Shown: positions 18,319 through 37,308 of the stretch, piece after piece
Position numbering within the stretch: position 1 is the stretch's first letter
Layout of the letters: each line of letters starts with the position of its first letter
NCBI RefSeq assembly: GCF_900113065.1
Contig: NZ_FOOA01000002.1
Location: 186,001 to 250,000, forward strand
Length of the DNA stretch: 64,000 nucleotides
Direction of reading: 5' to 3'
Origin: Aureimonas phyllosphaerae
Lineage (GTDB): Bacteria > Pseudomonadota > Alphaproteobacteria > Rhizobiales > Rhizobiaceae
Position numbers and translations under genes: made by a program
The notes under the pieces: model-generated
What the model saw: only the letters and a program-made list of their open reading frames with translations
Databases searched by the model: none
What the model was told of the DNA's origin: nothing

Positions 18319-18810
18319 ATGACGTCTGAACGCACGGTCCACATTCTGCGCCACGCTCACTCCTCATGGGCGGTCCCCGGACAACGGGACCACCAGCGCG
18401 TTCTCGACGACCGGGGTCGCGCCGATGCCGTACGCATGGCGGAAGAGGCGCATGCGATCGGATCGCGTGTTGGAATGGTGGTCTGTTCCACAGCGGTGCG
18501 TGCGCGGCAGACGCTGGACCTTTTTCGAAGGGCGCTGCCGCAGGACGTGCCGGTCCGCTTCAGCGACGAGCTCTATGCGCTCGGCCGCGCTGCATATGTC
18601 GGCGAGATCGACGCGTTCGCGGGACCCGGCGAACTGCTGCTCGTGGGGCACAATCCGACGATCGAGGATCTCGCGCTTCACCTTTGCGAGGGCGACGAGA
18701 CTTCGCAGCGACTGCTTCGGTCCGGTGTCGGCACCTCGAACTGGCTCACGATCGATCTGAACGCCGGGACCAGCCAGCGCGGACGTCTGCGCGTGTTGCT
18801 CAAGCCTTAG
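18319..18810 (+). CDS. sixA: SixA-like histidine phosphatase
   Basis: This 163-residue protein belongs to the histidine phosphatase superfamily. The phospho-accepting histidine is in LRHAHSSW (R11-H12), a second arginine lies in STAVRARQT, and the acid/base and second histidine are in the LYALGRAAY and LVGHNPTIEDL segments. Such short forms resemble SixA, which removes phosphate from histidines of phosphotransfer proteins; small-molecule phosphatase activity is also possible. GAGGG precedes the ATG at 18319. It is divergent from dksA across a 281-base gap. Confidence 0.82.
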   Translation: MTSERTVHILRHAHSSWAVPGQRDHQRVLDDRGRADAVRMAEEAHAIGSRVGMVVCSTAVRARQTLDLFRRALPQDVPVRFSDELYALGRAAYVGEIDAFAGPGELLLVGHNPTIEDLALHLCEGDETSQRLLRSGVGTSNWLTIDLNAGTSQRGRLRVLLKP

Positions 18811-18890
18811 CGATCCGACCTGTCGAGGGTGGCGAGCGCCGACTATATCAGCGTCTCCTGTTCGCAGATCCCGAACCCGATCGGTTGACC

Positions 18891-20348
18891 ATGCCCTCCA
18901 TTGCCGACGAAGCGCGTATTGTCTTCGAAAACATCGCGGATCGGGGAGCCGGGCTGTTCCATCCCACGCTGCGGCTTGGCGTCGCCGGGCTTTCACGCGC
19001 CGGGAAGACGGTCTTCATTACGGCTCTGGTCCACAATCTCCTGCATGGCGGTCGCCTGCCGGTGTTCGAAGCCCAGAGCTCCGGGCGCATCTCGCGTGCC
19101 TATCTCGAGGAGCAACCGGACGATGCCGTGCCGCGCTTCCAGTACGAAGAGCACCTGCGCGCTATTCTGGAGGACCGGGTCTGGCCGCAATCGACACGAG
19201 CGATCTCGCAACTGCGCCTGACGGTCGAATACGAGTCCGCCTCAGGCTGGATGCGCTTCCTGTCACCGGGAAAGCTGTCGATCGACATCGTCGATTATCC
19301 CGGCGAATGGCTGCTCGACCTTCCACTTCTCGAGAAGGACTTCGCCACCTTTTCCGCGGAATCGCTGGAGCGAGCGCGCCTGCCGTCGCGGGAGAGGATG
19401 GCACAACCGTTTCTCGACGTGCTGGCAACGATCGACCTCGAAGCGGTCGCCGACGAGACCACGAGCCAGCGGCTCAGTTCGACCTTCGCTGACTACCTGA
19501 GGGCCTGTCGGCAGGATCGCACGGCCCTTTCGACCCTGCCGCCGGGACGCTTCCTGATGCCGGGCGATCTCGAGGGATCGCCCGCCCTCACGTTCGCGCC
19601 TTTGCCGGTCGAACCGGGGCGCGTCTATCCGAAGGGCAGCTACGGGGCGATCCACGCGCGTCGGTACGAGGCCTACAAGACCGTCGTCGTCCGACCATTC
19701 TTTCGCGACCACTTCGCGCGCCTCGACCGCCAGATCATCCTGATCGACGCGCTGCAGGCGATCAACGCGGGACCGGAAGCGGTTCAGGATCTGGAGACCG
19801 CCCTCAGCGACATCCTCGCCTGCTTCCGGCCGGGCCGCGCGTCCTGGCTCGGATCGCTGCTCACACCGCGGATCGATCGTATTCTTGTGGCCGCAACCAA
19901 GGCCGACCACCTGCACCGCACCAGCCACCAGCGCCTCGAAAACATCGTCAGGCGGCTGGTGGACGGGGCAGTCGAGCGTGCGAAACTATCGGGCGCCCAG
20001 ACCGATGTCGCCGCGATGGCTGCGGTGCGCGCGACCCACGAGGCCACGGTTTCGGACAAAGGCGAGACGCTGCCGGTCATCGTTGGCACCCCGATCGAAG
20101 ACGAAGAGATCGCCGGGCAACGCTTCGACGGCCGAACCGAAACGGCGGTCTTCCCGGGCGATCTGCCGGAGGACCCCTCGCGCATCCTGCGCGCGCGGGA
20201 GGACGGCATCGGTGCGCTCGATCCCCTGACCTTCGTCCGCTTTCGTCCGCCGAGGCTGGAGCGCACCGCCGAAGGGGCGACGCTCTCCCTGCCGCAGATC
20301 CGCCTCGACCGCGCCCTTCAGTTCCTGATGGGAGACCGTCTGGCATGA
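18891..20348 (+). CDS. ycjX: YcjX-like P-loop ATPase/GTPase
   Basis: This 485-residue protein matches the YcjX (DUF463) family of P-loop NTPases. The Walker A motif is GLSRAGKT at residues 33-40 and a DYPGEW segment around residue 137 resembles a Walker B/G3 motif. In enterobacteria ycjX is linked to ycjF and the phage-shock regulon, but the molecular role is unknown. A CTATAT element at 18843 with CTGTCG 17 bases before it could be the promoter. It overlaps the ycjF-type gene by four bases (ATGA), a pairing conserved widely among proteobacteria. No pspA is nearby. Confidence 0.92.
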   Translation: MPSIADEARIVFENIADRGAGLFHPTLRLGVAGLSRAGKTVFITALVHNLLHGGRLPVFEAQSSGRISRAYLEEQPDDAVPRFQYEEHLRAILEDRVWPQSTRAISQLRLTVEYESASGWMRFLSPGKLSIDIVDYPGEWLLDLPLLEKDFATFSAESLERARLPSRERMAQPFLDVLATIDLEAVADETTSQRLSSTFADYLRACRQDRTALSTLPPGRFLMPGDLEGSPALTFAPLPVEPGRVYPKGSYGAIHARRYEAYKTVVVRPFFRDHFARLDRQIILIDALQAINAGPEAVQDLETALSDILACFRPGRASWLGSLLTPRIDRILVAATKADHLHRTSHQRLENIVRRLVDGAVERAKLSGAQTDVAAMAAVRATHEATVSDKGETLPVIVGTPIEDEEIAGQRFDGRTETAVFPGDLPEDPSRILRAREDGIGALDPLTFVRFRPPRLERTAEGATLSLPQIRLDRALQFLMGDRLA

Positions 20349-21388
20349 GCGACACACCGTCCCGCCGCCCATCGGCTTTCCCGGTCGATCCACCGCTGCC
20401 GCAGCCCCCTATCGCAACGGCGCGAGCGCCTCGCAGCATTTCCGACCTCGCCCGCGTGCAGATCGAACCCGACGAAGCGCTCGAGGCTGAAGCCGCCGCG
20501 CGGCTGGACGCGGAACCGGCGACCCGCCGCCGCCGCACGTTCTCGTTCGGCAAGCTCGCCATGGGCGCGCTCGGTGCGCTTGCATCGCTGGCCTTCGGGC
20601 TGGCGATCGATAGCTTCGTGCGCGATCTCTTCCAGCGCTCGGACTGGCTCGGCTGGACGGCTCTCGGTCTTGCCGTGCTGCTGCTGGTGGGGTTGCTCGG
20701 TGTCGTCGGTCGCGAAGCCCTCGGCATCATGCGGCTCAACGACGTGGAGCGTGAGCGCAGCGAGGGGCGCCGGGCCTTCGAAACCGACTCCGCAAAGGAC
20801 GCCCAGGCCGTCGTCGCCAAGCTGACAAAGCTCGTGTCGGCGAGACCGGAGACGGCCGCAGGTCGCGAGCGCCTCCATGCCTCGCGCGACGACGTCATCG
20901 ACGGTCGGAACCTGATCACGCTCGCCGAACGCGAACTCCTCCTGCCGCTGGATGCCCGCGCGCGTGCGCTTGTGCTCGCTTCGTCCAAACGGGTGTCCGT
21001 TGTGACGGCGGTCAGTCCGCGCGCCTTCATGGACCTCGCCTTCGTCCTCTTCGAAACTGTGCGCCTGATCCGCTCGGTATCGTCGCTCTACGGCGCCCGA
21101 CCGGGCGCTATCGGGCTCGTTCGGCTGGTGCGCGACGTTCTGGCGCATCTGGCTGTCACCGGGTCGATCGCGGTCGGCGACGGGATCGTGGGGCAGGTCG
21201 TAGGCCATGGGCTGGCGGCGCGACTGTCCGCGAAGCTCGGCGAGGGCCTCGTCAACGGCCTTCTGACCGCCCGGATCGGCATCGCCGCCATGGACCTCTG
21301 CCGACCCCTTCCCTTCCTCAGCGTCCAACGCCCGAGGATCGGCGACTTCCTCAATGAACTCAAGCCTATGGGCGGCGAGAAGCCGTGA
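20345..21388 (+). CDS. ycjF: YcjF-like (TIGR01620/DUF697) inner membrane protein
   Basis: This 347-residue protein has a polar, proline-rich N-terminal stretch, two transmembrane helices at about residues 75-120 (LAMGALGALASLAFGLA and WLGWTALGLAVLLLVGLLG), an amphipathic middle section and a third hydrophobic region near residues 225-300 with the DUF697-type VTAVSPRAFMD start. It is translationally coupled to ycjX. The pair is expected to work together at the inner membrane, but no reaction is known. Confidence 0.9.
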   Translation: MSDTPSRRPSAFPVDPPLPQPPIATARAPRSISDLARVQIEPDEALEAEAAARLDAEPATRRRRTFSFGKLAMGALGALASLAFGLAIDSFVRDLFQRSDWLGWTALGLAVLLLVGLLGVVGREALGIMRLNDVERERSEGRRAFETDSAKDAQAVVAKLTKLVSARPETAAGRERLHASRDDVIDGRNLITLAERELLLPLDARARALVLASSKRVSVVTAVSPRAFMDLAFVLFETVRLIRSVSSLYGARPGAIGLVRLVRDVLAHLAVTGSIAVGDGIVGQVVGHGLAARLSAKLGEGLVNGLLTARIGIAAMDLCRPLPFLSVQRPRIGDFLNELKPMGGEKP

Positions 21389-21480
21389 CCCGAGTGCTGC
21401 GGCTTGTCGCTCGCGAAAGGTTCGGTTAACCGTTCCCGGCGATAGATAGGCCCATGTCCTTGCCGCTCCGAAGGCTCCCC

Positions 21481-22014
21481 ATGTTCCGTCCCGTCATCGC
21501 CGGATTGTCGCTTCTCTCGATCGCTCTTGCAGGCGCGATGCCGGCGCGCGCGGCCGATGTCGACGAAGCCTTCTTCAACTCGGTTTTCGGGCGCTGGTCG
21601 GGCCCGGGCGAAATCGTCGCCGGCAAGTACAAGGGCACGAAGTTCGTGTGCGACCTGTCGGGTCTCCAGCCCGAAAAGGCCGTCGGCATGTCGCTCGACG
21701 GGGCCTGCCGCGTCGGCATGTTCTCTCAGCCGATGAACGCGACCTTCACCAAAGGCGGCTCGTCCTACAAGGGCACGTTCCTCGATGGCTCGGGCGGCAA
21801 GGGCCTCGACATCGTTTCGGGCGACGTGTCGGGAAACAAGGTCGTCGTGGGTCTCGACCGCAAGCAGTTGAAGGGCGCTATGGTCGCCCGGCTCGAGGAC
21901 AAGAACAAGCTGATGATCACGATCTCGGTGCAGGTCGCGGGCGAGCTCGTTCCCGTCATCGGCATGACGCTGAAGCGCGACGAGAGCGTGAAGCGCGCCG
22001 CGTTGGCGGACTGA
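21481..22014 (+). CDS. Exported protein of unknown function
   Basis: I do not recognise a named family. The 177-residue product has a signal peptide (hydrophobic core VIAGLSLLSIALAGAMP, probable cleavage after ARA) and a mature part of about 150 residues rich in glycine, lysine and beta-prone segments, with two cysteines (CDLSG and ACRVG) that could form a disulphide in the periplasm. The ATG at 21481 has AAGG six bases upstream; an ATG at 21454 with a poorer site would add nine residues. It runs alone between ycjF and the convergent folK. Confidence 0.75.
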   Translation: MFRPVIAGLSLLSIALAGAMPARAADVDEAFFNSVFGRWSGPGEIVAGKYKGTKFVCDLSGLQPEKAVGMSLDGACRVGMFSQPMNATFTKGGSSYKGTFLDGSGGKGLDIVSGDVSGNKVVVGLDRKQLKGAMVARLEDKNKLMITISVQVAGELVPVIGMTLKRDESVKRAALAD

Positions 22015-22017
22015 GCG

Positions 22018-22521
22018 TCAGGCGGTCCGCCACCAGTCCGGCTCCGTCGGCCGACGTTCGATACCCGTCGTATCGAGCGTCTTCAGCCGCTCGACGATCG
22101 TCACGCCATCCAGAATTAACTGTGGCGCGATCTCGACGAGCGGGACAAGTACGAAGGCTCGCTCACCCATGCGTGGATGCGGCAGCGTCAGTGTCTCGCT
22201 CCGCATGCTGACACCACCGAAGTCCAGGATATCGAGGTCGACCGTCCGCGGACCCCAGCGCACGCTGCGATCGCGATGAAGCTCGGTTTCTACAGCCAGG
22301 CAGAGCGACAGCAGGCCATCCGCCGAGAGGCTGGTTTCGACACTCGCGCAGGCATTCAGGAATGTGGGCTGCACGATCGGCCCCCAAGGCGGAGTTTCAT
22401 AGACCGACGATACGGCGACCACGCTCGTGCAGAGATCGCGGTCGAGGGCACGCAGCGCCAGCGCCATTGAGTGGACGGGGTCCCCGATATTCCCGCCAAG
22501 CCCGAGATAGGCGGTGATCAT
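22018..22521 (-). CDS. folK: FolK, 6-hydroxymethyl-7,8-dihydropterin pyrophosphokinase
   Basis: This 167-residue enzyme transfers pyrophosphate from ATP to hydroxymethyl-dihydropterin in folate synthesis. Family motifs are LGLGGNIGDP at the N-terminus, VSSVYETPPWGP, FLNACASVET and the catalytic RWGPRTVDLDILDFGG followed by LPHPRMGERAFVLVPL. The start overlaps the folP stop by four bases, so the two are coupled. The usual middle gene folB (dihydroneopterin aldolase) is missing from this junction. Confidence 0.96.
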   Translation of the reverse strand: MITAYLGLGGNIGDPVHSMALALRALDRDLCTSVVAVSSVYETPPWGPIVQPTFLNACASVETSLSADGLLSLCLAVETELHRDRSVRWGPRTVDLDILDFGGVSMRSETLTLPHPRMGERAFVLVPLVEIAPQLILDGVTIVERLKTLDTTGIERRPTEPDWWRTA

Positions 22522-23378
22522 TGCCCTCGCTCCCGAAGCGCGGCGTCGACCAGCGCCAGCGCGTCTCGTGTCGGGCCGACGGCATGGACCCGGAAGATCG
22601 AGACGCCCCGCTCCCGCATCAGAACGCTCGTCGCGGCCGTGGCCACGTCGACGTCCCCGCTGTCCCGGTCGAGAACGCTCCGCACGAAGCGCTTGCGCGA
22701 GGTGCCGGCGAGGATCGGGTAGCCGAGGGGGGCAAGTTCGCCCAGCCGCATCATCAGTTCGAAGTTCTCCCTCGCATCCTTCGCGAAACCGAACCCGGGA
22801 TCGAGGACGATCTGGTCCTCGCTGACGCCCGCGTCGCGCGAGATCCCGACGGAGCGCCGGAGAAACGACCGCTGATCCTCGATGACGTCAGGCAGTTTCT
22901 CGCGCTCTCGCCCCGTGTGCATCAGGCATAGGCCTGCCCCGGTTCGGGCCGCGACTTGCGCGATCTCCGGCTCGCGTTGCGCGCCCCAGACGTCGTTGAC
23001 GATCGATGCGCCGGCCTTGACCGCAAGGGCCGCGGTCTCGGCGCGGTAGGTATCGATGGAGATCGCCACGTCGCTGTGAGCCCGTAGCGCGCGAATGACC
23101 GGCAGGACCCGGTCCTGCTCTTCCGCCGCCTCGACGGGTGCGGCGCCCGGCCGGGTTGACTCGCCGCCGATGTCGATGATGTCGGCGCCCTCTGCGATCA
23201 TTGCGAGCGCGGCCTCGACCGCCCGCTCGGTGCTGCCGTCGAAGCGACCGCCGTCGGAAAAGCTGTCCGGGGTGACGTTGAGGATGCCCATGATGGTCGA
23301 TCGCCGCCCGAGACGGATCGTCCGGCCGTGGGCCGTTCGCCAGATGCGCTCCAGTGTCACGGGTTCGCCCGATCTCAT
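22518..23378 (-). CDS. folP: FolP, dihydropteroate synthase
   Basis: This 286-residue TIM-barrel enzyme joins dihydropterin pyrophosphate and p-aminobenzoate; it is the sulfonamide target. Visible motifs are MGILNVTPDSFSDGG, DIGGESTRPGA, SIDTYRAE, IVNDVWGA and the DPGFGFAKD pterin-binding loop, with SRKRFV near the C-terminus. It is the first gene of a folP-folK operon and is followed directly by folK in a four-base overlap. Confidence 0.97.
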   Translation of the reverse strand: MRSGEPVTLERIWRTAHGRTIRLGRRSTIMGILNVTPDSFSDGGRFDGSTERAVEAALAMIAEGADIIDIGGESTRPGAAPVEAAEEQDRVLPVIRALRAHSDVAISIDTYRAETAALAVKAGASIVNDVWGAQREPEIAQVAARTGAGLCLMHTGREREKLPDVIEDQRSFLRRSVGISRDAGVSEDQIVLDPGFGFAKDARENFELMMRLGELAPLGYPILAGTSRKRFVRSVLDRDSGDVDVATAATSVLMRERGVSIFRVHAVGPTRDALALVDAALRERGQ

Positions 23379-23494
23379 CCGTATTTCCCAAGCCCGTTAC
23401 TGACGACCGCAATATTTCCGCAATCGTCCCTTGTATCTCTTTCGAACCCGCGTAGCGTAGGGGTCAGGTGTTTCAAGGGTCGAGGCCAGCGACG

Positions 23495-24094
23495 ATGCGG
23501 CGACTTCTGATCTCCAGCCTTGCGGCCGGATGCATGTTCACCGGCTCGGCCCATGCCGCCGAGATCACCGAGCGCACCACGTATTTCATGGTGCGCGGAG
23601 CGACGTTTGCCGAGCTGGACAGGGCGCTCGGAACAAACGGTCCGCTTCTGGGCGGCGGCGAGCGTCACGCGGGGGCCACGAAGGTCACCTTCACCCGCGA
23701 CCTGCAGTTCGACATTCAGAAGACCGGCTGCCGCATTGCCCGCACCAACCTCCGCCTCGATCTCGTGACCACCCTCCCGCGCTGGAACGCACCGCGTGGC
23801 GCCGACGCGAGGACGCGGACGATGTGGAAGGTGCTGCAGCGGGACATCGCGGAACACGAGGCGAAACACTCCACGATCGCCAAGAACTGGCTCGACCTGA
23901 TGAACCGGGAACTCTTGGCCCTGCCCCCCGAGCCGAGTTGTGCCCGTCTGGAGGTGAAGGCCGCGCATCTCTCGCAGCAGATGCAGATGGCCCATGCCAA
24001 GGAACAGAACGGGTTTGATCGTGCGGAGACGCGCGTCGTGGACTCCCGTCTCAATGCGAAGCTCGCGGCGGCCACGAAACGCGCGGCGCCTTGA
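23495..24094 (+). CDS. Secreted DUF922-type zinc protease
   Basis: This 199-residue product has a signal peptide (cleavage likely after SAHA) and the metalloprotease motif HEAKH at residues 121-125, which fits HExxH, within the DUF922 pattern RDIAEHEAKHSTIAK. The family is predicted to contain secreted zinc-dependent proteases; substrates are unknown. The ATG at 23495 with GAGG nine bases upstream is preferred over a GTG 27 bases earlier, because it starts right at the basic signal peptide. Two cysteines (CRIAR and SCARLE) may pair. It converges with the ferredoxin gene. Confidence 0.83.
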   Translation: MRRLLISSLAAGCMFTGSAHAAEITERTTYFMVRGATFAELDRALGTNGPLLGGGERHAGATKVTFTRDLQFDIQKTGCRIARTNLRLDLVTTLPRWNAPRGADARTRTMWKVLQRDIAEHEAKHSTIAKNWLDLMNRELLALPPEPSCARLEVKAAHLSQQMQMAHAKEQNGFDRAETRVVDSRLNAKLAAATKRAAP

Positions 24095-24934: not shown

Positions 24935-27900
24935 ATGTCGAAGATCAAGACGGCTGAACAGCTATCGGACGAAGCAGTCACCGAGCTGGAGGCGGCGCTT
25001 CAGGACACGGATTTCCTGGGTGCCGATCCCGATCAGCCTCAGGTGAGCGGGACGGCCGAAGGCCATGTCGAGAGCGATACGCTCGCCCCGTCCGAGATCA
25101 ACATCGAGTTCGCCCTCAATGAATTCGATCGCTCCGTGGAGGAAGCGACGAGCGCCCTCCGTGAGGAATCGATCGCCGAGCCAGTTGCGCAAACCGATCC
25201 GCTGAAGGCCGACGGGGAGGTTCCGCCCGAGCCGGACTTCCAGATCGCCGAAGAGGAACTGATCGCGTCGCTTGGCGATCTCGACCGCGTCGACCCGCCT
25301 GCGGCGGCCGATCGCCTCGGAAGCGCCGTGCCGCCGGTGGCGGCCGCGATCGCGGCAGGAACAGCCAGCACAGCGCGTCAGGATGCTCCCCCTCCTCGTG
25401 CGGAACCTGCGGCTCGGCGCCCGGAGCCGAGCGTCGCCCCCGAGCCCGTTCGTGCGTCGCGCACCCGCGACTTCAAGGCCGCTGTCGCCAATGACGAGCA
25501 GCGATCCGCCGCCGTGCGCGCCGATGCGCTGCTGACCCGCCGTTCATCGCGCCGCACGGTGGTCATCGGCGGCGTCGTCGCCGCCGCTTGGGTTCTCCTG
25601 GCTGGTGCGGCCGCCGCCGCTTTCATCAATTCCGGCACGTCGTCCGCCCCCGAGGCCGTCACGCTGGCCTTGGCGGCTTCTGCCGTGGTCCTGCCTGCCC
25701 TTCTCATCATGGCATTCGCCGTGATGGTGCGGCGTTCGCAGGATCTGCGCCTCATGAGCCGCTCGCTTGCCGAGGTCGCTCTTCGGCTGGCGGAACCTGA
25801 AAGCATTGCTTCCGAAAAGGTGGCGAGCGTCGGCAATGCCATTCGTCGTGAAGTGGCCGCTCTCGGCGAAGGCGTCGAGCGCGCGCTTTCGCGCATGGGC
25901 GAGCTGGAGGGCATCGTCCACAACGAAGTGTCTTCGCTCGAACGGGCCTACGCCGACAACGAGGTGAAGATCCGCTCGCTGGTGACCGACCTGTCGTCGG
26001 AGCGCGAGGCGATGCTGACGCATGCCGAGAACCTTCGCTCGTCGGTGGTCGGTTCGCACGATCGCCTGATCGGCGACGTCGACACGGCCTCCACCCGGAT
26101 CATCCGCCAGGTCGAGGACGCGACGCAGCGGTTCCATTCGCTCCTCGACGAGCGCGGTGCCGCCCTGTCGCAGGCCTATGAGGAACGCAGCCAGGCGCTG
26201 ACGGCGATGTTCGATACGCGCAGCCGCGAGATCGAAAGCGAACTGACCGGCAGCAGCACGACGGTGATCCTGCGGATCGGCGAAACCGCAGAGGAGACGA
26301 CGCGTCGGCTGGCTCAGACCGGCGAGGAACTCGCCCGGTCGCTGCGAGCGCAGGCCGAGGAACTGCAGGCGCGATCCGACGAACTGGTGCAACGCGTCTC
26401 CTCGATCGGCGAGGAAGCGGGTGAGCGCCTTCGCCAGTCGAACGATACCGTGCTGCGCCAGTTGGCGGAGCGTACCGAGAATCTTGCAACCGGCTCGGAG
26501 ACCTTCGACCGACGCCTCGCCGAAACGCTCGACGAGCGTTCCTCGCGTCTGATCGGCGAGAACGAAGCGCTGATCGCTTCGCTGGCCGGTAGCCTGGACC
26601 AACGGCTCGCCAACCTGACGACCGAGACCGAGCGTCTTCTGGCGCGTCTCGACGAGGCCTTCGACAGCCGGATCCAGAACGCGACCACCCTCCTCGGCTC
26701 GCGCAACGACAATGTTCTCAGCCGCTTCGACGAACGTCTCGCTCAGCTGGAAGCGGCTCTTTCTGGCAAGGGTGCGCAGCTCGTGCAGACGATCGAGGGT
26801 CAGGCCCTTGCGATCGACCGCACGGCAGACCGCCTCGCCGTCACCCTTTCCGAATCCTCCGGTAGCTTCGCGCGGACCGTGGCCGAGCGCGCCGACGAAA
26901 TCCGTCAGGCGATCGACAGTGGCCGGGAGAATCTTACCGCTGCCGCAGACAGCGCTCGTCAGGGCATCGACGCCAGCTTCAACCAGCATTCCGATCATTT
27001 GCGCTCGACCTTCGACGCGCAGATCGGCTCGCTCGGGGCCGTTCTCAGCGATCGCGCGGCCGACATCGACACGTCGCTCGCTTTCGCGCAGCAGGCGCTG
27101 ATCGCCCAGTTCGAAGAGCGCGGGACCGCCCTCACGCACTCCATCGAGAGCAACGTCGCCCGTATGGAGGCGATCATCGGCGGCGCCGAAGGCCGCCTGG
27201 TCTCCGGCGTGGAAGAGCGGGCCGGACGGCTTGAAGCTGCTCTCGTCGCGGCCGACTCGCAGGCGGACGATCGCTTCCAGACCCGCCTCGACCGCATGAA
27301 CGCGCTTCTTGCCGAGCGCGGATCGGCGATCGAAGTGGCGCTCGACCAGCGCACCCAGCTCCTGTCGAACGAATTCGAGACGCGTCTGGCTTCCCTCGAC
27401 CGCATGCTTGCCGATCGCACGGAGCGCTTCGTCACCGACTTCGACGAGCGGAACGAGGCCTTGACCACCGGGCTTGCGGACCGCATCACCGCCAGCGAGG
27501 CCTTCATGCGCGACAGCGGCGAGCGGCTGTCGACCTCGCTCGACCTTTATACCTCGCGGGTCGGCGACGACGTCATCGGGCGCCTGGAAGCGGCGTTGAT
27601 GATGGGCGACGACCGCCGGCAGGAATTCCTCGCCAATCTGGAAACGCGCACGGCCGGCATCGAGGCGAGCTTCGAGCAGTCCGTCGAGCGCGTCGTCAAC
27701 GATCTCGCCGTCCGGGTCCGCGAGCTTTCGGATGCGGTCGACACCTCGCATGCCGGTCTCACCGAAAGCCTGGACGAGCGCACTGACCGCTTCGCCCGCG
27801 ATATCGACCAGAATGCCGGCACGGTGCTCTCGGCTGTCGAGAACGCCCTGTCGCTCCTGATTCAGGGTCTCGACGGTCGTGGCGCGACGCTCCGCGAAGC

Positions 27901-30900
27901 GGTCGAGAACGCGCGCGGCGCCATTCTCGATGGCCTCGACGATCGCGTCGTCTCCATGCGCCAGATGGTCGACGCCTCGGAGAGCTCGCTGATTTCCGAC
28001 CTCGATGAGCGGACCACCCGTATCGCCGCCACGCTCGACAGCGGCAACGCGGCTATCCTCTCCACGTTGGAGACCCGCATCACGGCCCTGCGTCAGGCGC
28101 TCGTGGAATCCGACGGCTTCCTCGCCACCGCGATGGACGAGCGTCGCGACAACCTCACGTCCGCCATCGAGGACGTTGCGGGATCTCTGGCCGCCACGCT
28201 CGGCGACCGGGCGGACGACGTGCGCCGCGTTCTTGAGCAGAGCGCGGGCAACGTCACCACCGCGCTGGAGACCAAGCGCGAAGAGATCGTCGCCGCACTC
28301 GCCGCAGGCACCGTCAGCCTCGCGGCCGCGGTCGACGAGCGGACGAACGCCATCAATGCCAGCCTCGAGCGCGGCCTCGGCAATGTCGAACGCACACTCT
28401 CGGGTCGCACGGCAATGATCGCCGACACCCTGCGAGAGTCCATCGTCGCCGCGTCCGCCAAAATGGGCGAGGAGGCCGACCGTGCCCGCGCCGGTCTGGA
28501 AACCGAGACCCAGAAGATCGCCATCATCATCGGCGAGCTCGGCTCGACCTTCCGGTCGTCCTCTGCCGAGGCACAGGCCGAGTTCGTCGCCGAGGCCGGC
28601 CGGTTCGAGGAGCGCATCCGCGCCGTCGTCCAATCGGTTCAGGAGACCAGCCAGACGGCTCGCGAGGAGCTGACCGGCCAGAGCGCGCAGATCGCCGAGG
28701 GCATTGTGCTTTCCGCCGACTCGATCCGCCGCATTGGCCAGGAGGCGCAAGAGCGCTTCGCCGCAGAGGCTCAGCAACTCGGCCGTCAGGTCAGCGACGT
28801 CGCCGGGCGCATGCGTGCCGACGCCGAGGAACTGCGCGAGGCGCTCGCCCTCGAAGGCGACGCTTTCACCACGCAGATCGGCGGAGCCTCGCTCGCCATG
28901 CGCAGCGAAGCCGAGGCGGCGCGTGAGCGACTTTCGGAGGTCGCCAACGAGTTCGCAGGTGGGCTGGAGGCGATGGCCGACCGCCTGCGGCAGGACGCCG
29001 AGTCGGCGCGCCAGATCGTTCAGGACCAGGCGCAGTCCCTCTCCGGCGATATCTCGGAAGCATCGGACCGTCTCCGCCTCATCGGCGATCGGACGCGCCA
29101 GCAGTTCGCGACCGACGCCGCGCAGATCCGCGAGGAAGTTGCTGCAGCGGCCGTTCAGGTTCGCGAGCAGTCGGACGTGCTGCGCCGAGAGGTTGCCGAG
29201 CAGACCGCTGCGATCGGCGCCGAGTTCACCGATGCGAGCGCCCATCTGCGGGAAGCCGGCGAGCAGTCGCGCCGTAACCTGCTGGACGATGCGGGTCGCA
29301 TCACCGGCGAGGTCGCGCGGGTGGTCGAGGCCATGCGCGGCGAGACCGATCGCGTCCGCGAGCGGATCGGCGAGACGGCGGGTCAGCTGGTCGCCGAACT
29401 CACCGGTGCGACCGACCGCTTCGAGGCGAGCTCCGGCGACGTTCGTGAGCGTTTCGCCGCCGATGCCGCGCGCGTCGTGGGCGAAATCGACGCCGTGGTC
29501 CTCTCGATGACCGAGCAGGCCGAAAGCGCCCGGCAACGGTTCCTTTCGGATGCCGAAAGCTTCGCCGAACGCGTTCGCGGCGCCTCGACGCTCATCCGGG
29601 ACGAGACGGGTCGCAGCGTCACGATGCTGGGAGAGCGGGCCGACGGCTTCGTCGGAGAACTGGCGACCTTGTGGGATCGCCTCGCCACCCTCCTCTCCAA
29701 CACGTCCGGTGGGCTCAACGAAAGCCTGTCGCGTTCGATCATGGACCTGCGGGCCGAGATCGACGGCACGTCGGAGACGATCCGTAACGACATCCTGTCG
29801 GTTGCCGCCAACATCCGCGACGAGACGGCCAACGTCTCGGGCGAGATCCTTCGCGAGGCCGAGCAGGCGCGTACGGCGCTGAGCGCCGAAGGCTCGCAGG
29901 TCGTGCTCGGCCTGTCTGCGGCGGCAACCGCCCTCCGTCTGGAGGCCGAGCGCGCCCGCGATCAGATCGCCGAGGTGACGACGGGATTCGGCGCGGAGAT
30001 CGCCGATCGCGTCTCGTCGTCCGAGCGCGAGCTGACGCAGAGCTCGGATCGTGTGGCGGAACGGATGGCGGAGCGCACCCGCGCCCTGTCGCAAATCCTG
30101 ACCGATCGCAACGCCGAGCTTGCCACCCTGATCGAGACACGCACCCAGCCCATCGTCGATGCGCTGTCTCAGACGGGAACCGCGGCGATTGCCGCCCTGG
30201 AAGGCACATCCGACCAGGTGGCGGAGCGGCTGCGCGCCGAGAATGCGGCCGTGGTTGCCGATTTCGTGCAGCGGACGGAGGAGCGCGTTCAGCGCCTCAG
30301 CCGTTCGTCGTCCGAGCTGATTGCCGCGCTCGACCAGCGTTCGGAAGAGGCCGCAACCCGTGTGTCCGGTATTCAGGGTCAGCTCGGCCAGGAGGTCACG
30401 CAGCTTCTCGATCGGCTCGACAACAGCAACGAGACGCTTCGCACGATGCTGGAGGACGCCAGCGGCTCGATCGGCCGCGTGGAGACCTCGCTCATCGATA
30501 CCCGCGATCGCTTCCGGACCGAGGCGCTGCGTGTCGAGGACGAGATCACGTCCTCGTCCGACCGCCTGGAGCAATCGATCGCCCGGATGGACGGTGTCAC
30601 GTCGTCCGCCTTTATGCAGATCGGCGGTATGACCGAGAAGTTCGCCGAGCACGGGCGCCTTCTCTCCGACGCAGCACGTCTGCTCGACGAGACGCAGACC
30701 AACCTTCAGTCGACGCTCGAAGAGCGTCACGAGGGCCTGACGCTGCTGGCCGGAACGTTGGCCGACCGCTCGCGCACCATCTCCGAGACGCTGAACGCGT
30801 TCGAGGGCGTCGTGGATCGTCTCTTCACGCAGGCCGAGGAGCGCGCCCGCGCCGTGGCTGCGACGGTCAATGGCGAACTTGGGTCGAGCCTCGGCGACGC

Positions 30901-31945
30901 CGAGCAGCAGCTGGAGGAGACCGAACGCCGTTCGCAGGCTGCCGCCGAGCAGATCCGCGAGGCGATGCGCTCGGTGATCGAGGAGGCGTCCGAGAAGTTC
31001 GCGGGTGCGACATCGGAAATGCGCCGCGCAGCTGGCGACATGCGTCGCGAGCTGGAAACGGCGCGTACGGAAATCCGCCGCGGCGTCTTCGAGCTGCCGG
31101 AGGAGACTCGCGAGAGCACCCGGGCGATGCGCCGGGCGGTGTCGGACCAGATCCGCGCCCTGCGCGAACTCAGTGACATCGTTTCGACCTCCGGCCGTGC
31201 GATGGACGTGCGCAAGCCCTCGACCGACGACCGCGGTTCTCGCTCGGCCGGCTCGAGCAGCGAGAGCGAGCGTCGCGTGGCACCGCCGGCCGTCAGCGGC
31301 AACCTGGCCTATGACGTGCGTGGCAATGCCGACGCCTCGCGCATGCTGACGCAGCAGCCTTCGGCAAACCCGGTCCAGACGGGACGGACGGGCGAGTTCT
31401 CGCCGCTTCGCCCGGCTGCACCAGCGCAGGTCCCCGCTCCGATCGCCACGCCTGCAGCCCGTCCGGCGGCTGGTGAAAGTGATGGCGGCTGGGTGTCCGA
31501 TCTCCTGCGTCGCGCCTCCCAGGATGAGGACGAGGGTGTGGAGCCTGCATCGGCTCCGGCCGCTCCCTCAGAAGCGGCGCGCACCGAGCGCAGCCAGGCG
31601 CACGTGGTCGACTCCTTGAACTCGCTGTCGGTAGATATCGCCCGTGCGATCGATCACAACGTGTCGGTCGAACTGTGGGACCGCTACCGCAACGGCGAGC
31701 GCAACGTCTTCACTCGTCGTCTCTACACGATGAAGGGGCAGCAGACGTTCGACGAAATCCGTCGCAAGTACCAGCGCGACGCGGATTTCCGTCATGCGGT
31801 CGACCGCTACATCGCGGACTTCGAGTCGCTGCTTCAGGACGCCTCGCGACGCGACCCGGACAACACACGCAGCAAGTCCTACCTGACGTCCGATACGGGC
31901 AAGGTCTACACGATGCTGGCGCACGCTTCGGGCCGCTTTGACTGA
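24935..31945 (+). CDS. Giant apolipoprotein-like coiled-coil membrane protein, GPR (growth pole ring) homologue
   Basis: This is a 2,336-residue protein. Residues 1-205 are acidic and proline-rich; two transmembrane helices lie at about 209-229 and 242-265, giving a hairpin with both long ends on the same side. Residues ~280-2070 are almost entirely amphipathic helix with units such as LDER-x18. From residue 404 the phasing is largely 22 residues and from 1177 it is exactly 29. Residues ~2090-2225 are a low-complexity linker, and the last ~110 residues form a conserved-looking globular end (SVELWDRYRNGERNVFTRR and so on). In size, membrane hairpin and apolipoprotein-like helix it matches GPR, the growth-pole ring scaffold of Agrobacterium (about 2,100 residues), which organises unipolar growth. 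A role in polar growth is inferred from that likeness. A strong terminator follows. Confidence 0.85.
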   Translation: MSKIKTAEQLSDEAVTELEAALQDTDFLGADPDQPQVSGTAEGHVESDTLAPSEINIEFALNEFDRSVEEATSALREESIAEPVAQTDPLKADGEVPPEPDFQIAEEELIASLGDLDRVDPPAAADRLGSAVPPVAAAIAAGTASTARQDAPPPRAEPAARRPEPSVAPEPVRASRTRDFKAAVANDEQRSAAVRADALLTRRSSRRTVVIGGVVAAAWVLLAGAAAAAFINSGTSSAPEAVTLALAASAVVLPALLIMAFAVMVRRSQDLRLMSRSLAEVALRLAEPESIASEKVASVGNAIRREVAALGEGVERALSRMGELEGIVHNEVSSLERAYADNEVKIRSLVTDLSSEREAMLTHAENLRSSVVGSHDRLIGDVDTASTRIIRQVEDATQRFHSLLDERGAALSQAYEERSQALTAMFDTRSREIESELTGSSTTVILRIGETAEETTRRLAQTGEELARSLRAQAEELQARSDELVQRVSSIGEEAGERLRQSNDTVLRQLAERTENLATGSETFDRRLAETLDERSSRLIGENEALIASLAGSLDQRLANLTTETERLLARLDEAFDSRIQNATTLLGSRNDNVLSRFDERLAQLEAALSGKGAQLVQTIEGQALAIDRTADRLAVTLSESSGSFARTVAERADEIRQAIDSGRENLTAAADSARQGIDASFNQHSDHLRSTFDAQIGSLGAVLSDRAADIDTSLAFAQQALIAQFEERGTALTHSIESNVARMEAIIGGAEGRLVSGVEERAGRLEAALVAADSQADDRFQTRLDRMNALLAERGSAIEVALDQRTQLLSNEFETRLASLDRMLADRTERFVTDFDERNEALTTGLADRITASEAFMRDSGERLSTSLDLYTSRVGDDVIGRLEAALMMGDDRRQEFLANLETRTAGIEASFEQSVERVVNDLAVRVRELSDAVDTSHAGLTESLDERTDRFARDIDQNAGTVLSAVENALSLLIQGLDGRGATLREAVENARGAILDGLDDRVVSMRQMVDASESSLISDLDERTTRIAATLDSGNAAILSTLETRITALRQALVESDGFLATAMDERRDNLTSAIEDVAGSLAATLGDRADDVRRVLEQSAGNVTTALETKREEIVAALAAGTVSLAAAVDERTNAINASLERGLGNVERTLSGRTAMIADTLRESIVAASAKMGEEADRARAGLETETQKIAIIIGELGSTFRSSSAEAQAEFVAEAGRFEERIRAVVQSVQETSQTAREELTGQSAQIAEGIVLSADSIRRIGQEAQERFAAEAQQLGRQVSDVAGRMRADAEELREALALEGDAFTTQIGGASLAMRSEAEAARERLSEVANEFAGGLEAMADRLRQDAESARQIVQDQAQSLSGDISEASDRLRLIGDRTRQQFATDAAQIREEVAAAAVQVREQSDVLRREVAEQTAAIGAEFTDASAHLREAGEQSRRNLLDDAGRITGEVARVVEAMRGETDRVRERIGETAGQLVAELTGATDRFEASSGDVRERFAADAARVVGEIDAVVLSMTEQAESARQRFLSDAESFAERVRGASTLIRDETGRSVTMLGERADGFVGELATLWDRLATLLSNTSGGLNESLSRSIMDLRAEIDGTSETIRNDILSVAANIRDETANVSGEILREAEQARTALSAEGSQVVLGLSAAATALRLEAERARDQIAEVTTGFGAEIADRVSSSERELTQSSDRVAERMAERTRALSQILTDRNAELATLIETRTQPIVDALSQTGTAAIAALEGTSDQVAERLRAENAAVVADFVQRTEERVQRLSRSSSELIAALDQRSEEAATRVSGIQGQLGQEVTQLLDRLDNSNETLRTMLEDASGSIGRVETSLIDTRDRFRTEALRVEDEITSSSDRLEQSIARMDGVTSSAFMQIGGMTEKFAEHGRLLSDAARLLDETQTNLQSTLEERHEGLTLLAGTLADRSRTISETLNAFEGVVDRLFTQAEERARAVAATVNGELGSSLGDAEQQLEETERRSQAAAEQIREAMRSVIEEASEKFAGATSEMRRAAGDMRRELETARTEIRRGVFELPEETRESTRAMRRAVSDQIRALRELSDIVSTSGRAMDVRKPSTDDRGSRSAGSSSESERRVAPPAVSGNLAYDVRGNADASRMLTQQPSANPVQTGRTGEFSPLRPAAPAQVPAPIATPAARPAAGESDGGWVSDLLRRASQDEDEGVEPASAPAAPSEAARTERSQAHVVDSLNSLSVDIARAIDHNVSVELWDRYRNGERNVFTRRLYTMKGQQTFDEIRRKYQRDADFRHAVDRYIADFESLLQDASRRDPDNTRSKSYLTSDTGKVYTMLAHASGRFD
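27869..28462 (+). repeat. Array of 22-residue protein repeats inside the GPR-like gene
   Basis: Residues 979-1176 consist of nine units of exactly 22 residues. Their openings are LDGR, LDDR, LDER, LETR, MDER, LGDR, LETK, VDER and LSGR, at residues 979, 1001, 1023 and so on to 1155. The DNA is not repetitive enough to call a tandem DNA repeat; the repetition is in the protein. Twenty-two residues is the unit of apolipoprotein A/E helices. Units in the same phase also occur at residues 404, 426, 532, 554, 576, 598 and 620. Confidence 0.9.
28463..29680 (+). repeat. Array of fourteen 29-residue protein repeats inside the GPR-like gene
   Basis: From residue 1177 to 1582 the helix repeats every 29 residues. 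Unit starts are hydrophobic residues at 1177, 1206, 1235, 1264, 1293, 1322, 1351, 1380, 1409, 1438, 1467, 1496, 1525 and 1554. The pattern is: hydrophobic at 1, often Arg at 2, acidic at 4 and 6, usually Arg at 9, hydrophobic at 12, usually Ala at 16, hydrophobic at 19, often Glu at 21-22, hydrophobic at 23. The array starts directly where the 22-residue array stops. Confidence 0.9.
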
Positions 31946-32771: not shown

Positions 32772-33368
32772 TCAGACGAGCCGGATCATCCATGCCACGA
32801 TCTCGTCCGCCACGGAGCCGAAAGCCTGATCCAGCGCGGACACGTAGCCCGAGGGCTGGCCGTTTGCGACCGGCACGTCGGCGCGGAAGATACGAGTGCC
32901 CCGAACGACGCCCGTTCGGTCGTTCAAGGCTTTCACGGAAATCTCGACGACGGCCGTGGCCCCGGGCTCGAAAGCGATCTCGAAACGCCGAAGCTCGGTG
33001 ACGACCTGATAATCGATCGCGAGGCCCTGTCCCGGCACGCCGGCTGCGCCGATGCGGCCCGTGTTCTGGAAGGCCTGCAGTAGGCGCAGCTGAACGAGAC
33101 GCGGAAGGCGGTCGCTCCACTGACTGTCGGCGAGGTTCTCGATGGTCTGCGGTGTCGGCTTCACGACGATCCGCTGGCTGTCCAACGTCTGGGTTGCGGT
33201 GGGCTCCGGCAGGAGGATTTGCGACCGCGTCGAAGCGGACCCGACCGAGGCCGGGCCGGGAGGCGAGAGTTCGAAAGTGGCGGGCGGGGTCTTCAAGGAC
33301 GCGCAAGACGAGAGCGCGAGCGCTGCCACCATGAGGCCGGACCATCTTGCCGCAGCGTTTCGTGCCAT
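32772..33368 (-). CDS. ABC-type transport auxiliary lipoprotein (PqiC/DUF330-like)
   Basis: This 198-residue lipoprotein has a signal peptide ending in the lipobox LSSC (ALALSSCASLK). The mature part fits the auxiliary lipoproteins that accompany MCE/Mla transporters in alphaproteobacteria, with a YVSALDQAFGSVADEIVAWM-like C-terminal helix, shortened here to its pattern. It likely sits in the periplasm or at the outer membrane as the partner of the MCE protein encoded 140 bases upstream. It is the last gene of the operon mlaE-mlaF-mce-lipoprotein and is followed by a terminator. Confidence 0.88.
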   Translation of the reverse strand: MARNAAARWSGLMVAALALSSCASLKTPPATFELSPPGPASVGSASTRSQILLPEPTATQTLDSQRIVVKPTPQTIENLADSQWSDRLPRLVQLRLLQAFQNTGRIGAAGVPGQGLAIDYQVVTELRRFEIAFEPGATAVVEISVKALNDRTGVVRGTRIFRADVPVANGQPSGYVSALDQAFGSVADEIVAWMIRLV

Positions 33369-33508
33369 TTCGATCCTCGACGCATTTACTGACGGAAAGC
33401 CGAAGCTGGCGCGCTTCCCGCGGGTTTCAAAGTGGCGAAGTGCCTGACGGCAGCGCTTCGCGCGACGTATGTTGCCGGCTGGCCACCCGGCCCGCCGAGG
33501 AAGCTCGC

Positions 33509-35176
33509 CTATCGCCGGACGCGACCGTCGAACTGGCGGACCTCGCCCGATCCGTCGCCGCCATAGATGACGCGGCTCGGATTGTTCGCGAGATCGAGGA
33601 TGGCCCGCTCGATCCGCGACACCGCCTGCGTCGTCTCGCGGATGAGGTTGCGTGCGTCCTGCAGTCCCTGCCCGGTGAAATTCTGCAGATTCGCCGCGAT
33701 CGGTCCGACCGAACGCTGGATCGTCTCGGCCGTCGCGCGCACGCTCTGCAGCGTTGCCCTCGCCTCCGCGGTCAGGCCCTGCCCGTCCGGGCTGTTCACG
33801 AGGCCGTTCACCGAATTGATGAGCGTCTGAACCTGGTTCGAGGCGACCTTCAGCGCGGCGCTCGTGTCCTCGACGTTCGTGATGATGTCGTTGATGTCCT
33901 GGCGGCGCGAATTGATGTTGTCGGCAACGCCGCGCACCGAGTCTGCCGCCGCCGCGATGTTGTTGGTCGCGGACGAAACGTTGTTGACGGCCTGGTTGAT
34001 GGTCGAGGCGCTTACGGCCGACAGAAGCGTGTCGATCCGGGCGCGGGTACCGTTCAGACCCTCCAGCGCACCGTTCAGGGTCTGCAGCATCGTGTCGGCG
34101 CCAGCGACGACCGAACCGACGCGGCCGGACTGGGCGTTGAGCGCATCGGTGAAGCCGGAGACGCTGTTGATCGTCGAGCGCACCTGATCCGGATTGACGG
34201 CTGCGGTGATCTGAGAGACGTCGGCGAGCGTCGAGTCGAGGCGCGTCGCCACGCTCGTCGCGGTCTCGGAGATCGGGCCGAGCCGCTGGAGGAATGCCTG
34301 AACGCTCGGAAGATTCTGGGTGATCGTGTCGCCCACCGAGCCAAAGCCGGCGACCGCCGAGGAGACGGACTCGATCGCCCGCGTGAAGTTTCCGGTCTGA
34401 TCGCGCAGCGACTGCGAAATCGCCGCGACGTTCTGGATCGACTGGTTGACGGCCGCGACGTCGAGCGCGCCGATAAAGTTGCTGGCGCGGCTCATGAGGT
34501 CGGGAAGCTGCACCGCGACGTTGTTGGCGCTGCGCGAAAGGTCGGCGAGACTCGCCAGGAAGTCGTCGATCTGGTCGGCGTTGGCGGCGAGGCTGTCGGT
34601 GAACGTGCGGACGTTGGTCGACGTCTGCGCGACGTTGTCGGCCGTCGTGCGCACGGCAGGACCGATCGCCTGCACGATGTCCTCGAACTGGCCGAGAATG
34701 TTGTTGGCGCGGTCGGCGATGTCGCGCGCGGTGGCGAGGATGTCGGTCACATCCGACGGGTTGGCGGTGATGACCGGCGTCGCGCCCTGCTCCAGCGCCG
34801 ACTGGATGATGTTGCGGTCGTTGACGTTACCGCCCGTAAGTCCGATGAACCCGATACCGGTGAGGCCCTGGAAGCCGATCGTCGCGGTGGTCGAGGTGGT
34901 GACCGGCGTCGTGCGATCGATCTGCGTCGTCGCGATGACGACGCGCGGATTGTTCGGATCGATGCGCAGGTTGGTGACCGAACCGACTGCGAGGCCGTTA
35001 AACAGGACCTGGCTGCCCTGGCTAAGACCGGAGACGGAGCCTTCGATGCGCACGAGTAGCGGGACGCGGGAGTCGCGGTCAGACACGTTCGCGGACCAGT
35101 AGACGAAGCCGAAGCTTGCCAGGAGCACCGCGACGGTGAACACACCGACGAGGATGTAGTTGGCTCTGGTTTCCAT
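33509..35176 (-). CDS. MCE-domain lipid transport protein (MlaD-like)
   Basis: This 555-residue protein has an N-terminal transmembrane helix (ANYILVGVFTVAVLLASFGFV in shortened form), one MCE domain at about residues 38-115 (SVSGLSQGSQVLFNGLAVG) and a long helical C-terminal region rich in Asn, Val and Ser with pseudo-repeats such as VNNVSSATNNIAAAADSV. MCE proteins of this length form hexamers whose helices can build a periplasmic needle or channel for phospholipids. The ATG at 35176 overlaps the preceding ATPase stop (TGATG); an in-frame GTG just upstream is less likely. It belongs to the Mla-type operon. Confidence 0.93.
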   Translation of the reverse strand: METRANYILVGVFTVAVLLASFGFVYWSANVSDRDSRVPLLVRIEGSVSGLSQGSQVLFNGLAVGSVTNLRIDPNNPRVVIATTQIDRTTPVTTSTTATIGFQGLTGIGFIGLTGGNVNDRNIIQSALEQGATPVITANPSDVTDILATARDIADRANNILGQFEDIVQAIGPAVRTTADNVAQTSTNVRTFTDSLAANADQIDDFLASLADLSRSANNVAVQLPDLMSRASNFIGALDVAAVNQSIQNVAAISQSLRDQTGNFTRAIESVSSAVAGFGSVGDTITQNLPSVQAFLQRLGPISETATSVATRLDSTLADVSQITAAVNPDQVRSTINSVSGFTDALNAQSGRVGSVVAGADTMLQTLNGALEGLNGTRARIDTLLSAVSASTINQAVNNVSSATNNIAAAADSVRGVADNINSRRQDINDIITNVEDTSAALKVASNQVQTLINSVNGLVNSPDGQGLTAEARATLQSVRATAETIQRSVGPIAANLQNFTGQGLQDARNLIRETTQAVSRIERAILDLANNPSRVIYGGDGSGEVRQFDGRVRR

Positions 35177-36006
35177 CACTCGTTCCCGCTGAAATACGGA
35201 TTCTCGTCCTTGGGCACGACGTATCGCGCCCGCTTGCCGTGAAAGTACGACTTCACCCAGTCGTCCTCGAAATCCAGCATGGTCTGGAGCGGCCCTTCCA
35301 CAAGGACCTTCTTCTTGCCGAGCACCGCGATCCGGTCGCAGGCCTGGAACAGGCTGTCGAGGTCGTGCGTCACCATGTAGACCGTCAGCCCGAGCGTGTC
35401 GCGAAGCGTCATGATGAGCTCGTCGAAGTCGGCGGCGCCGATCGGATCGAGGCCCGATGTCGGCTCGTCGAGGAAGACGATGTCGGGGTCGAGCGCGAGA
35501 GCGCGGGCCAGCGCAGCGCGCTTGATCATGCCGCCGGAGAGCTCGGACGGGTACTTGTCGGCGGCGTCGGCGGCCAGACCGACGAGATCGATCTTCAGCC
35601 GTGCCAACTCGTCCATGAGCTTGGGCGAGATGTCGAGATACTCGCGCATCGGAACCTGGATATTCTCCAGCACCGTCAGCGACGAGAACAGGGCGCCCTG
35701 CTGAAACAAGACGCCCCAGCGCTGCTCGACGCTCAGCCGCGCGGCTTCGTCGGCGCGCTCGTAGTCGACGCCGAACACCTCGATCGTGCCCGACTGCTTG
35801 GCGTTGAGGCCGAGAATGGTGCGCAGGAGCACGGACTTGCCGGTGCCCGAAGCACCGACGAAGCCGAGGATCTCGCCGCGACGCACGTCGAGCGACAGGC
35901 CGTCCAGAATCGTCTTCGAGCCGAAGCGGACCGTCACATCCTTGGCGCGGATGATGACGTCGTCGTCCCGGTTGCGAGGCGTGGTGTCAGTATCCGATGG
36001 CGGCAT
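35176..36006 (-). CDS. mlaF: Mla-type ABC transporter ATPase
   Basis: This 276-residue ATPase drives the MlaE-type permease in lipid transport between the membranes. It shows Walker A GASGTGKSV, signature LSGGMIKRAALARAL, Walker B IVFLDEPTSGLD and the VTHDLD switch. The ISPKLMDELARLKIDLVGL segment is typical of MlaF. I chose the ATG at 36006, inside the last codons of mlaE (20-base overlap); an ATG at 36027 would add seven residues and cannot be ruled out. No good ribosome site is seen, consistent with coupling to mlaE. Confidence 0.93.
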   Translation of the reverse strand: MPPSDTDTTPRNRDDDVIIRAKDVTVRFGSKTILDGLSLDVRRGEILGFVGASGTGKSVLLRTILGLNAKQSGTIEVFGVDYERADEAARLSVEQRWGVLFQQGALFSSLTVLENIQVPMREYLDISPKLMDELARLKIDLVGLAADAADKYPSELSGGMIKRAALARALALDPDIVFLDEPTSGLDPIGAADFDELIMTLRDTLGLTVYMVTHDLDSLFQACDRIAVLGKKKVLVEGPLQTMLDFEDDWVKSYFHGKRARYVVPKDENPYFSGNE

Positions 36007-37177: not shown

Positions 37178-37308
37178 GCGATCGCTCGGGTCGTGGGATG
37201 GCGGTATAGGAAAAGGCCGTAACACCGCTCGGCCGGCTTAAGGTCTTAACGCCAGAGTTAGCTTGCGTCGTGTGCGATGCAATGCCCGTTAAGTTTTGCG
37301 AAGGAAAT

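Follow-up and report, generated by a model that had tools for sequence, protein, structure and literature searches.

Hendecad and heptad steps in the rod of an Aureimonas GPR/RgsE orthologue: a probable coiled-coil strut with phase-neutral length changes

GPR of Agrobacterium (2,115 residues) and RgsE of Sinorhizobium (2,089 residues) have been described as cytoplasmic proteins that are anchored in the membrane and located at the growing pole (PMC8262873, PMC7327166). Two N-terminal transmembrane domains are reported for GPR, which localises in Agrobacterium to a growth-pole ring of 200 nm with six GPR foci and is required for rod shape (PMC8262873); partners of RgsE are TolQ, RgsA and RgsS, and the S. 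meliloti laboratory strain can do without RgsE (PMC7327166). The published account of GPR refers to apolipoprotein domains and to coiled coils about 21 residues long, and a word search of that paper (PMC8262873) returned no mention of repeats, periodicity or 22- or 29-residue units; RgsE is termed 'repeat-containing' once, in the methods (PMC7327166). Here, we describe a GPR/RgsE orthologue of Aureimonas phyllosphaerae with a long repeat stretch, encoded in 64,000 nucleotides of contig NZ_FOOA01000002.1 (the window, to whose first letter all coordinates refer). The subject is of wider relevance, since GPR is the organiser of polar growth for an entire order of bacteria.

Scy and FilP of Streptomyces also serve polar growth, the unit of Scy being 51 residues long (7 + 4 × 11). 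The repeat of SF-assemblin consists of four heptads plus a skip residue, and the apolipoprotein A1/A4/E family (PF01442) has a helical periodicity of 22 and 11 residues. Rods built of hendecads are already known from scaffolds of division and growth (Scy, FilP), and 29-residue rods from SF-assemblin; new within the open-licence PMC literature, as far as searched, are the 11/7 grammar of GPR, the quantised evolution of its length and a reversal control against its apolipoprotein assignment. Scy and FilP share with the GPR rod the long hendecad coiled coils with many core alanines and are described as dimers, but they possess a DivIVA-like N-terminal motif (PMC9858780), and their likeness to GPR is one of architecture.

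Repeat units of the rod

The orthologue is a single open reading frame (ORF) on the forward strand (24935..31945; 2336 amino acids (aa)). It has the size, N-terminal hydrophobic segments, long helical rod and C-terminal domain of RgsE and GPR (PMC7327166, PMC8262873), the rod being very long and located behind two hydrophobic segments that were recognised by inspection only.

For this protein, the original prediction, made from the letters of the DNA, had described nine 22-residue units at residues 979-1176 that meet fourteen 29-residue units at residues 1177-1582. Autocorrelation and shuffles confirmed both arrays, and the picture of one GPR-type protein with two repeat lengths and an abrupt change between them was borne out. 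The base positions quoted for unit starts were all correct (27869 for residue 979, 28397 for 1155, 28463 for 1177, 28811 for 1293 and 29507 for 1525), so that the nine strict units occupy 27869..28462 and the fourteen 29-residue units 28463..29680, both on the forward strand. In the autocorrelation that had been proposed as a check, carried out with BLOSUM62 lags, a 22-series preceded and a 29-series followed residue 1177: the leading lags were 44, 22, 66, 88 and 110 in residues 979-1176 and 116, 87, 58 and 29 in residues 1177-1582, and in sliding windows the period changed at the predicted place. The observed value was reached by none of 2000 plain shuffles for either period and by none of 500 helical-angle-preserving shuffles in each of 15 settings, where z at matching pitch was 4.4-7.8 for period 22 and 8.5-12.9 for period 29. 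Wrong-period controls (400 plain shuffles and 100 per angle setting) gave values at or below the null when period 29 was tried in the first zone. In the second zone, period 22 lay slightly above plain shuffles (z 2.5, reached by 4 of 400) and above angle shuffles at pitches 3.5, 3.6 and 3.667 (z 2.3-3.1), and equalled the null at pitches 3.625 and 3.64. A tandem-repeat search of the window DNA gave no row within the repeat stretch.

Three details required correction, in part by a hidden Markov model (HMM) parse. The strict 22-residue pattern, with an acidic residue at 2, R/K at 4 and G/S around 15-17, is indeed confined to residues 979-1176, but the 11/22 register is longer and runs slip-free through residues 631-1169 (26825..28441, forward strand), a single-register hendecad array of 24.5 units of 22 with lags 33/55/22/44. 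The switch of period stands, but its exact position is uncertain by about 7 residues, because the extra heptad of the 29-residue unit can be assigned to either side of 1177; in the parse, the boundary falls at 1170. According to lag analysis, period scan and HMM parse, the rod starts with 11-residue based spacing interrupted by slips (25754..26824, residues 274-630) and ends with a mixed 11/18/22/25/29 spacing (29681..31153, residues 1583-2073), the 11/18/22-residue spacing reappearing after residue 1582. The 604-residue stretch of the two arrays aligns without gaps in ten Aureimonas loci at 56-94% identity.

The core columns, determined from column make-up, are 1, 5, 8, 12, 16 and 19 in the 22-residue unit and 1, 5, 8, 12, 16, 19, 23 and 26 in the 29-residue unit. 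From this spacing, the units resolve into 11+11 and 11+11+7, and the 29-residue unit is the 22-residue unit, i.e., two hendecads, plus one heptad in register. The reading of 29 residues as four heptads plus one, with a different supercoil, was therefore not upheld: the core positions are the same, and the Fourier-peak pitch shifts only from 3.670 residues per turn in the 22-residue part to 3.628 in the 29-residue part. The 11+11+7 unit likewise separates the rod from SF-assemblin and beta-giardin with their four heptads plus skip, which are, moreover, eukaryotic with about 240 residues of helical domain; the Pfam SF-assemblin model matched only a reversed control in the scans. The rod has the 11-residue hydrophobic period (a-d-h) and the pitch near 3.67 of hendecads, and both of its pitches are far from the heptad pitch (3.5). 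An undistorted helix has 3.63 residues per turn (PMC9858780); given their pitches, both rod parts are nearly straight, the 29-residue unit being the straighter of the two.

For comparison, the best 80 of 550 relatives were kept as a first set, which for this reason consists of close kin. Its genera (Aureimonas, Mesorhizobium, Sinorhizobium, Brucella and others) are, following GTDB practice, taken by us to lie within the family code of the window. Six loci were excluded from all counts, namely, L015, L016 and L036 with frames below 900 aa, L031 and L042 at a contig end, and L053 for N; the remaining 74 loci and the window make up the 75 orthologues counted, with frames taken from stop to stop. 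Across them, columns 1, 8, 12 and 19 of the 22-residue unit are 86-97% LIVMF, and columns 5 and 16, the hendecad 'a' places, are 66% and 49% A/G/S/T, values that arise partly by construction because the parse was fitted to these proteins. Hendecads require a small residue at the 'a' place or a higher oligomer (PMC9858780), and the alternation of A/S/T/G at 'a' with large core residues (L/I/V/M/F) matches what hendecads in low-order bundles should show. A multimeric rod, originally proposed for the 29-residue part, remains likely but would comprise the whole rod. A single-chain structure model of residues 979-1582, built from 11 sequences, shows at low confidence one helix over residues 980-1206 that is unbroken at 1177, which speaks against separate sections meeting there.

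Length changes between orthologues

The rod length ranges from 1057 to 2412 aa over the 75 orthologues (HMM parse), corresponding to an extent of about 160 to 360 nm if helical. To quantify how these differences arise, indels were counted in 308 pairs with a 5-mer overlap above 0.25, accepting gaps that were flanked on both sides by 8 or more aligned residues. This yielded 454 indels in the rod and 901 elsewhere in the same proteins. In the rod, 98 were of 29 aa, 56 of 11, 43 of 7, 35 of 65, 30 of 36, 28 of 58 and 22 of 22; three were of 3 aa and none of the 454 of 1-2 aa. Elsewhere, 236 indels of 1 aa and 150 of 2 aa together made up 386 of the 901. Among indels of 4-60 aa, 324 of 328 in the rod were sums of the form 7a+11b, numbers that fill 0.53 of this range, as opposed to 83 of 402 outside. 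On average, indels deviated from an integral number of helical turns by 0.078 in the rod and by 0.245 elsewhere, 0.25 being expected without preference.

The same preference was found when pairs were made disjoint (26 pairs; indels up to 60 aa in the 7a+11b set: 24 of 25 in the rod versus 6 of 102 elsewhere) and when alignment was replaced by exact shared words as anchors (512 of 524 versus 199 of 1620; 8-mers in the rod, 6-mers elsewhere, non-disjoint pairs). It is visible in single pairs: L047 and L064 differ by one 36-residue rod insertion, no other indel passing the filter, L030 and L068 by 44 residues of rod, and L049 and L079 by rod differences of 11 and 29. In-frame periods of up to 60 aa returned by Tandem Repeats Finder fell into the 7a+11b set in 131 of 134 rows from the 74 rods and in 158 of 165 rows from 40 rods of a wider set (36 orthologues from 19 other family codes and four from that of the window, with the rod taken from residue 301 to 330 before the end), and so did all dominant-period segments of the first set (419/419) and of the wider set (262/262). 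In these comparisons, nearly all gains and losses of rod length left the helical phase intact. The quantised indels would point, in clear numerical terms, to this phase as the property of the rod under evolutionary protection.

With regard to the two periods themselves, conservation in homologues, which had been suggested as a check, was found for both in near relatives but not across the order at large. A 29-residue segment over threshold was present in 69 of the 75 orthologues, preceded in 63 by a segment of 11n residues, and absent in six (L030, L032, L038, L068, L078 and L079), although the HMM parse decodes three 29-residue units in L079. By the same parse, the array comprises about 14 units in the window, 35 in L021, 23 in L018 and 19 in L020, but 3-7 in eight Sinorhizobium/Ensifer loci. 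The S. meliloti orthologue (L071) has the 11n spacing first and then the 29-residue spacing, as does the Aureimonas protein, with an array of 4 units instead of about 14. Units of 36 and 94 residues are found in Mesorhizobium loci, those of 44 residues in L030, L068 and L078. In the wider set, the 29-residue segment was found in three proteins (L094 of f32; L111 and L112 of f1) and was absent in 35 of the 36 orthologues from outside the family of the window; segments of 11, 22, 33, 44 or 55 residues occurred in every one of the 40 and segments of 40 residues in a few. The hendecad rod therefore extends to every family sampled, the 29-residue array being a feature mainly of the closer kin of the window.

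Near-identical tandem arrays at the DNA level were detected in some relatives, with 282-bp units at 92-93% matches (L041, L080) and 198-bp units at 94% (L012). A tree labelled by unit number required at least 23 changes among 75 rows. It was given little weight because the tree was a quick one and the decoded number can be off by one at array ends, as seen from 14.3 units in the window and 13.3 in L003 and L004 despite their gap-free alignment. In L015 and L016, from Jiella pelagia and Aurantimonas manganoxydans, the C-terminal domain of GPR closes a frame of only 725 and 533 aa, respectively, which may mean that the gene is disrupted or misassembled within its repeats.

Strut, lipid contact and repeat turnover

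We consider it probable that the GPR rod forms a coiled-coil strut, almost untwisted and anchored in the membrane, which evolves in length through phase-neutral units. The repeat stretch would belong to the cytoplasmic rod of GPR/RgsE, the scaffold of the growth-pole ring of Rhizobiales, and this long coiled coil, probably a parallel dimer or else a small bundle, would consist of 11-residue steps with 7-residue steps inserted. Because the 29-residue unit contains the same two hendecads plus one heptad, the helices would cross the junction in register. Units would arise by duplication and disappear by deletion, in lengths near a whole number of helical turns; only phase-neutral lengths would persist, since any other length would rotate the hydrophobic stripe and open up the bundle. 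As the rod joins the membrane anchor to the conserved C-terminal domain, it would act as a strut setting the reach of that domain from the membrane, and it may also offer a long docking face. Oligomer state, orientation, reach and strut function are what we infer here, with selection as the presumable cause of the missing indels of 1-2 aa. A further step, doubtful at present, would be to regard GPR as an evolvable molecular ruler, in which phase-neutral 7/11 units and their compounds (22, 29, 36, 44, 94) keep the rotational setting of the C-terminal domain while the reach varies from about 160 to about 360 nm, and in which length sets ring size or growth-zone depth in each lineage.

The working model of GPR, in contrast, leans on kinship with apolipoproteins, a reading published for the protein and shared by the original prediction for its 22-residue part, which was taken as lipid-facing or curved: amphipathic helices of 22 residues would act at the growth pole in lipid binding or sorting. 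The PF01442 match, which also contributed to the assignment of the ORF, is strong (5.9e-49 and 166.8 bits on the whole protein, above the curated Pfam cut-off of 90), phmmer retrieved apolipoprotein A-IV chains from the PDB for residues 300-1176 (3.6e-06), and MCE/MlaE-type lipid-transport genes lie near the GPR gene in many loci. Deletion of the A-IV-like regions of Agrobacterium GPR is, further, reported to disturb cell shape (PMC8262873). However, residues 300-1176 scored 107 bits forward and 97.2 bits reversed, and the S. meliloti orthologue 141.9 and 110.3 bits, so that reversed sequences also exceed the cut-off, the forward score being higher by 10 and 32 bits, respectively. Even columns shuffled within the hendecad phase still matched (2.2e-11, 44 bits). 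A profile that accepts the reversed chain reads mostly period and composition; the PF01442 match is no evidence of apolipoprotein homology. The family and the rod do share the 22-/11-residue periodicity and the strong profile score, but the rod keeps most of this score when reversed, is proline-free over 1450 residues (289-1738) and has a narrow strong stripe. LIVMFWY account for only 26% and 23% of residues in the 22- and 29-residue parts, and columns with a mean hydropathy of at least 1.9 fall within an arc of about 65 degrees, a few weak ones lying beyond it, instead of forming the wide face of about half the helix that is generally ascribed to apolipoproteins. The 29-residue part had no PDB match at E 0.01. 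This lowers the claim that GPR is an apolipoprotein, and a lipid-facing or curved 22-residue part is not supported; lipid contact as such would stay compatible with the sequences, but as the role of the rod we rate it as improbable. Still more improbable are two modules as originally predicted, one of 22-residue units that is curved or lipid-facing and one of 29-residue units that forms a multimeric rod of its own with a different supercoil. The abruptness of the switch and its conservation in the genus would fit such a division, yet the core positions are identical in both units, the pitch changes by 0.04 residues per turn, a helix is predicted across the junction, and the 29-residue array shrinks to the 3-7 units of the Sinorhizobium/Ensifer loci or is missing from the six proteins and the families listed above. 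Matches to ZorA, LA_3659 and SpiroCoCo were below curated cut-offs and were rejected as coiled-coil noise.

Neutral repeat turnover, by which slippage or unequal exchange would create units of 22, 29, 36, 44 and 94 residues with no role for phase or rod length, fits the recent near-identical arrays of 282-bp and 198-bp units, and unequal exchange between like repeats yields whole-unit changes without selection. It does not readily account for the 11- and 7-residue rod steps, which are common (56 and 43 of 454), for the absence of 1-2 residue steps from the rod when they are frequent elsewhere, or for the 604 residues that are free of gaps in the window and ten relatives though the units have diverged. 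Steps of 7 and 11 residues, together with the lack of those of 1-2 residues, argue for selection without being proof, and we rate turnover alone as unlikely. Other points also weigh against a phase-protected strut. The structure model is weak (mean predicted local distance difference test (pLDDT) 63, predicted template modelling score (pTM) 0.30), with the helix broken at 1207-1210 and 1497-1501; of 199 DNA tandem rows of at least 18 bp from the first set, 8 do not keep the frame; and the period scan is noisy above 40 aa, 225 shuffled rods having given 425 segments, all but 18 of them above 40 aa. The 308 indel pairs share history, and repeats of one event were merged only roughly, which the disjoint-pair count answers in part. 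A straight rod of about 270 nm, furthermore, needs to be reconciled with foci about 50 nm wide, for which a folded chain has been argued (PMC8262873). The same source gives 600 nm for an extended helix of 1700 residues (PMC8262873); at 0.15 nm per residue, such an alpha helix would measure 255 nm, near the reported ring size, and the 600-nm figure fits an extended chain and not an alpha helix. The natural series of rod lengths allows the strut to be tested directly against a lipid organiser.

Termini of the protein and gene neighbourhood

Just N-terminal of the rod, two hydrophobic segments were seen by eye in the translation (25550..25730, forward strand, about residues 206-265) and would correspond, as a putative membrane anchor, to the N-terminal transmembrane pair of GPR (PMC8262873). 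The rod is followed by a Pro-rich linker (31154..31600, forward strand, residues 2074-2222), which was delimited by its proline positions, is background in the HMM parse and belongs to the regions with ordinary indels (N-terminal part, linker and C-terminal domain pooled). On the opposite strand, an open frame of 1728 aa (25544-30730) covers most of the rod and is probably a by-product of high-GC repeat codons.

The C-terminal domain (31601..31942, forward strand) is common to S. meliloti and other Rhizobiales. Its 114 residues were matched in 286 of 297 genomes of the order and 117 of 118 genera, a match being absent in 11 of the 297 genomes. Identity was 75-100% in the 80 loci of the first set, 75-91% across 23 orthologues compared and 77% to S. 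meliloti. Because E-values are far weaker in distant families, down to 1e-11, the domain is well conserved rather than invariant. Its structure model is all-helical (mean pLDDT 81), without a PDB fold match at 0.001 (top match E 1.1) or a Pfam match at 0.1, and a single weak PHROG match (0.0052) pointed to a family of unknown function. It is likely a partner-binding domain of some kind.

An MCE/MlaE-type lipid-transport operon adjoins the GPR gene on the reverse strand (32772-37225), comprising an ABC_trans_aux lipoprotein, an MlaD/MCE protein of 556 aa, an ATP-binding cassette (ABC) ATPase and an MlaE permease with STAS. Among the 74 loci, of 15 kb or more with flanks of at most 10 kb on each side, relatives of the auxiliary lipoprotein were found in 55, of the MCE protein in 55, of the ATPase in 62, a count that may include paralogues, and of the permease in 54; L048 and L071 had the ATPase only. 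Given the limited flanks, misses may be due to cut ends. Upstream of the GPR gene (18366-24094), the window contains genes for a YcjX-like DUF463 protein, a DUF697 protein and a small unassigned protein, folK and folP on the reverse strand, and a gene for a DUF922 protein (23468-24094), relatives of which were found in 51 of the 74 loci.

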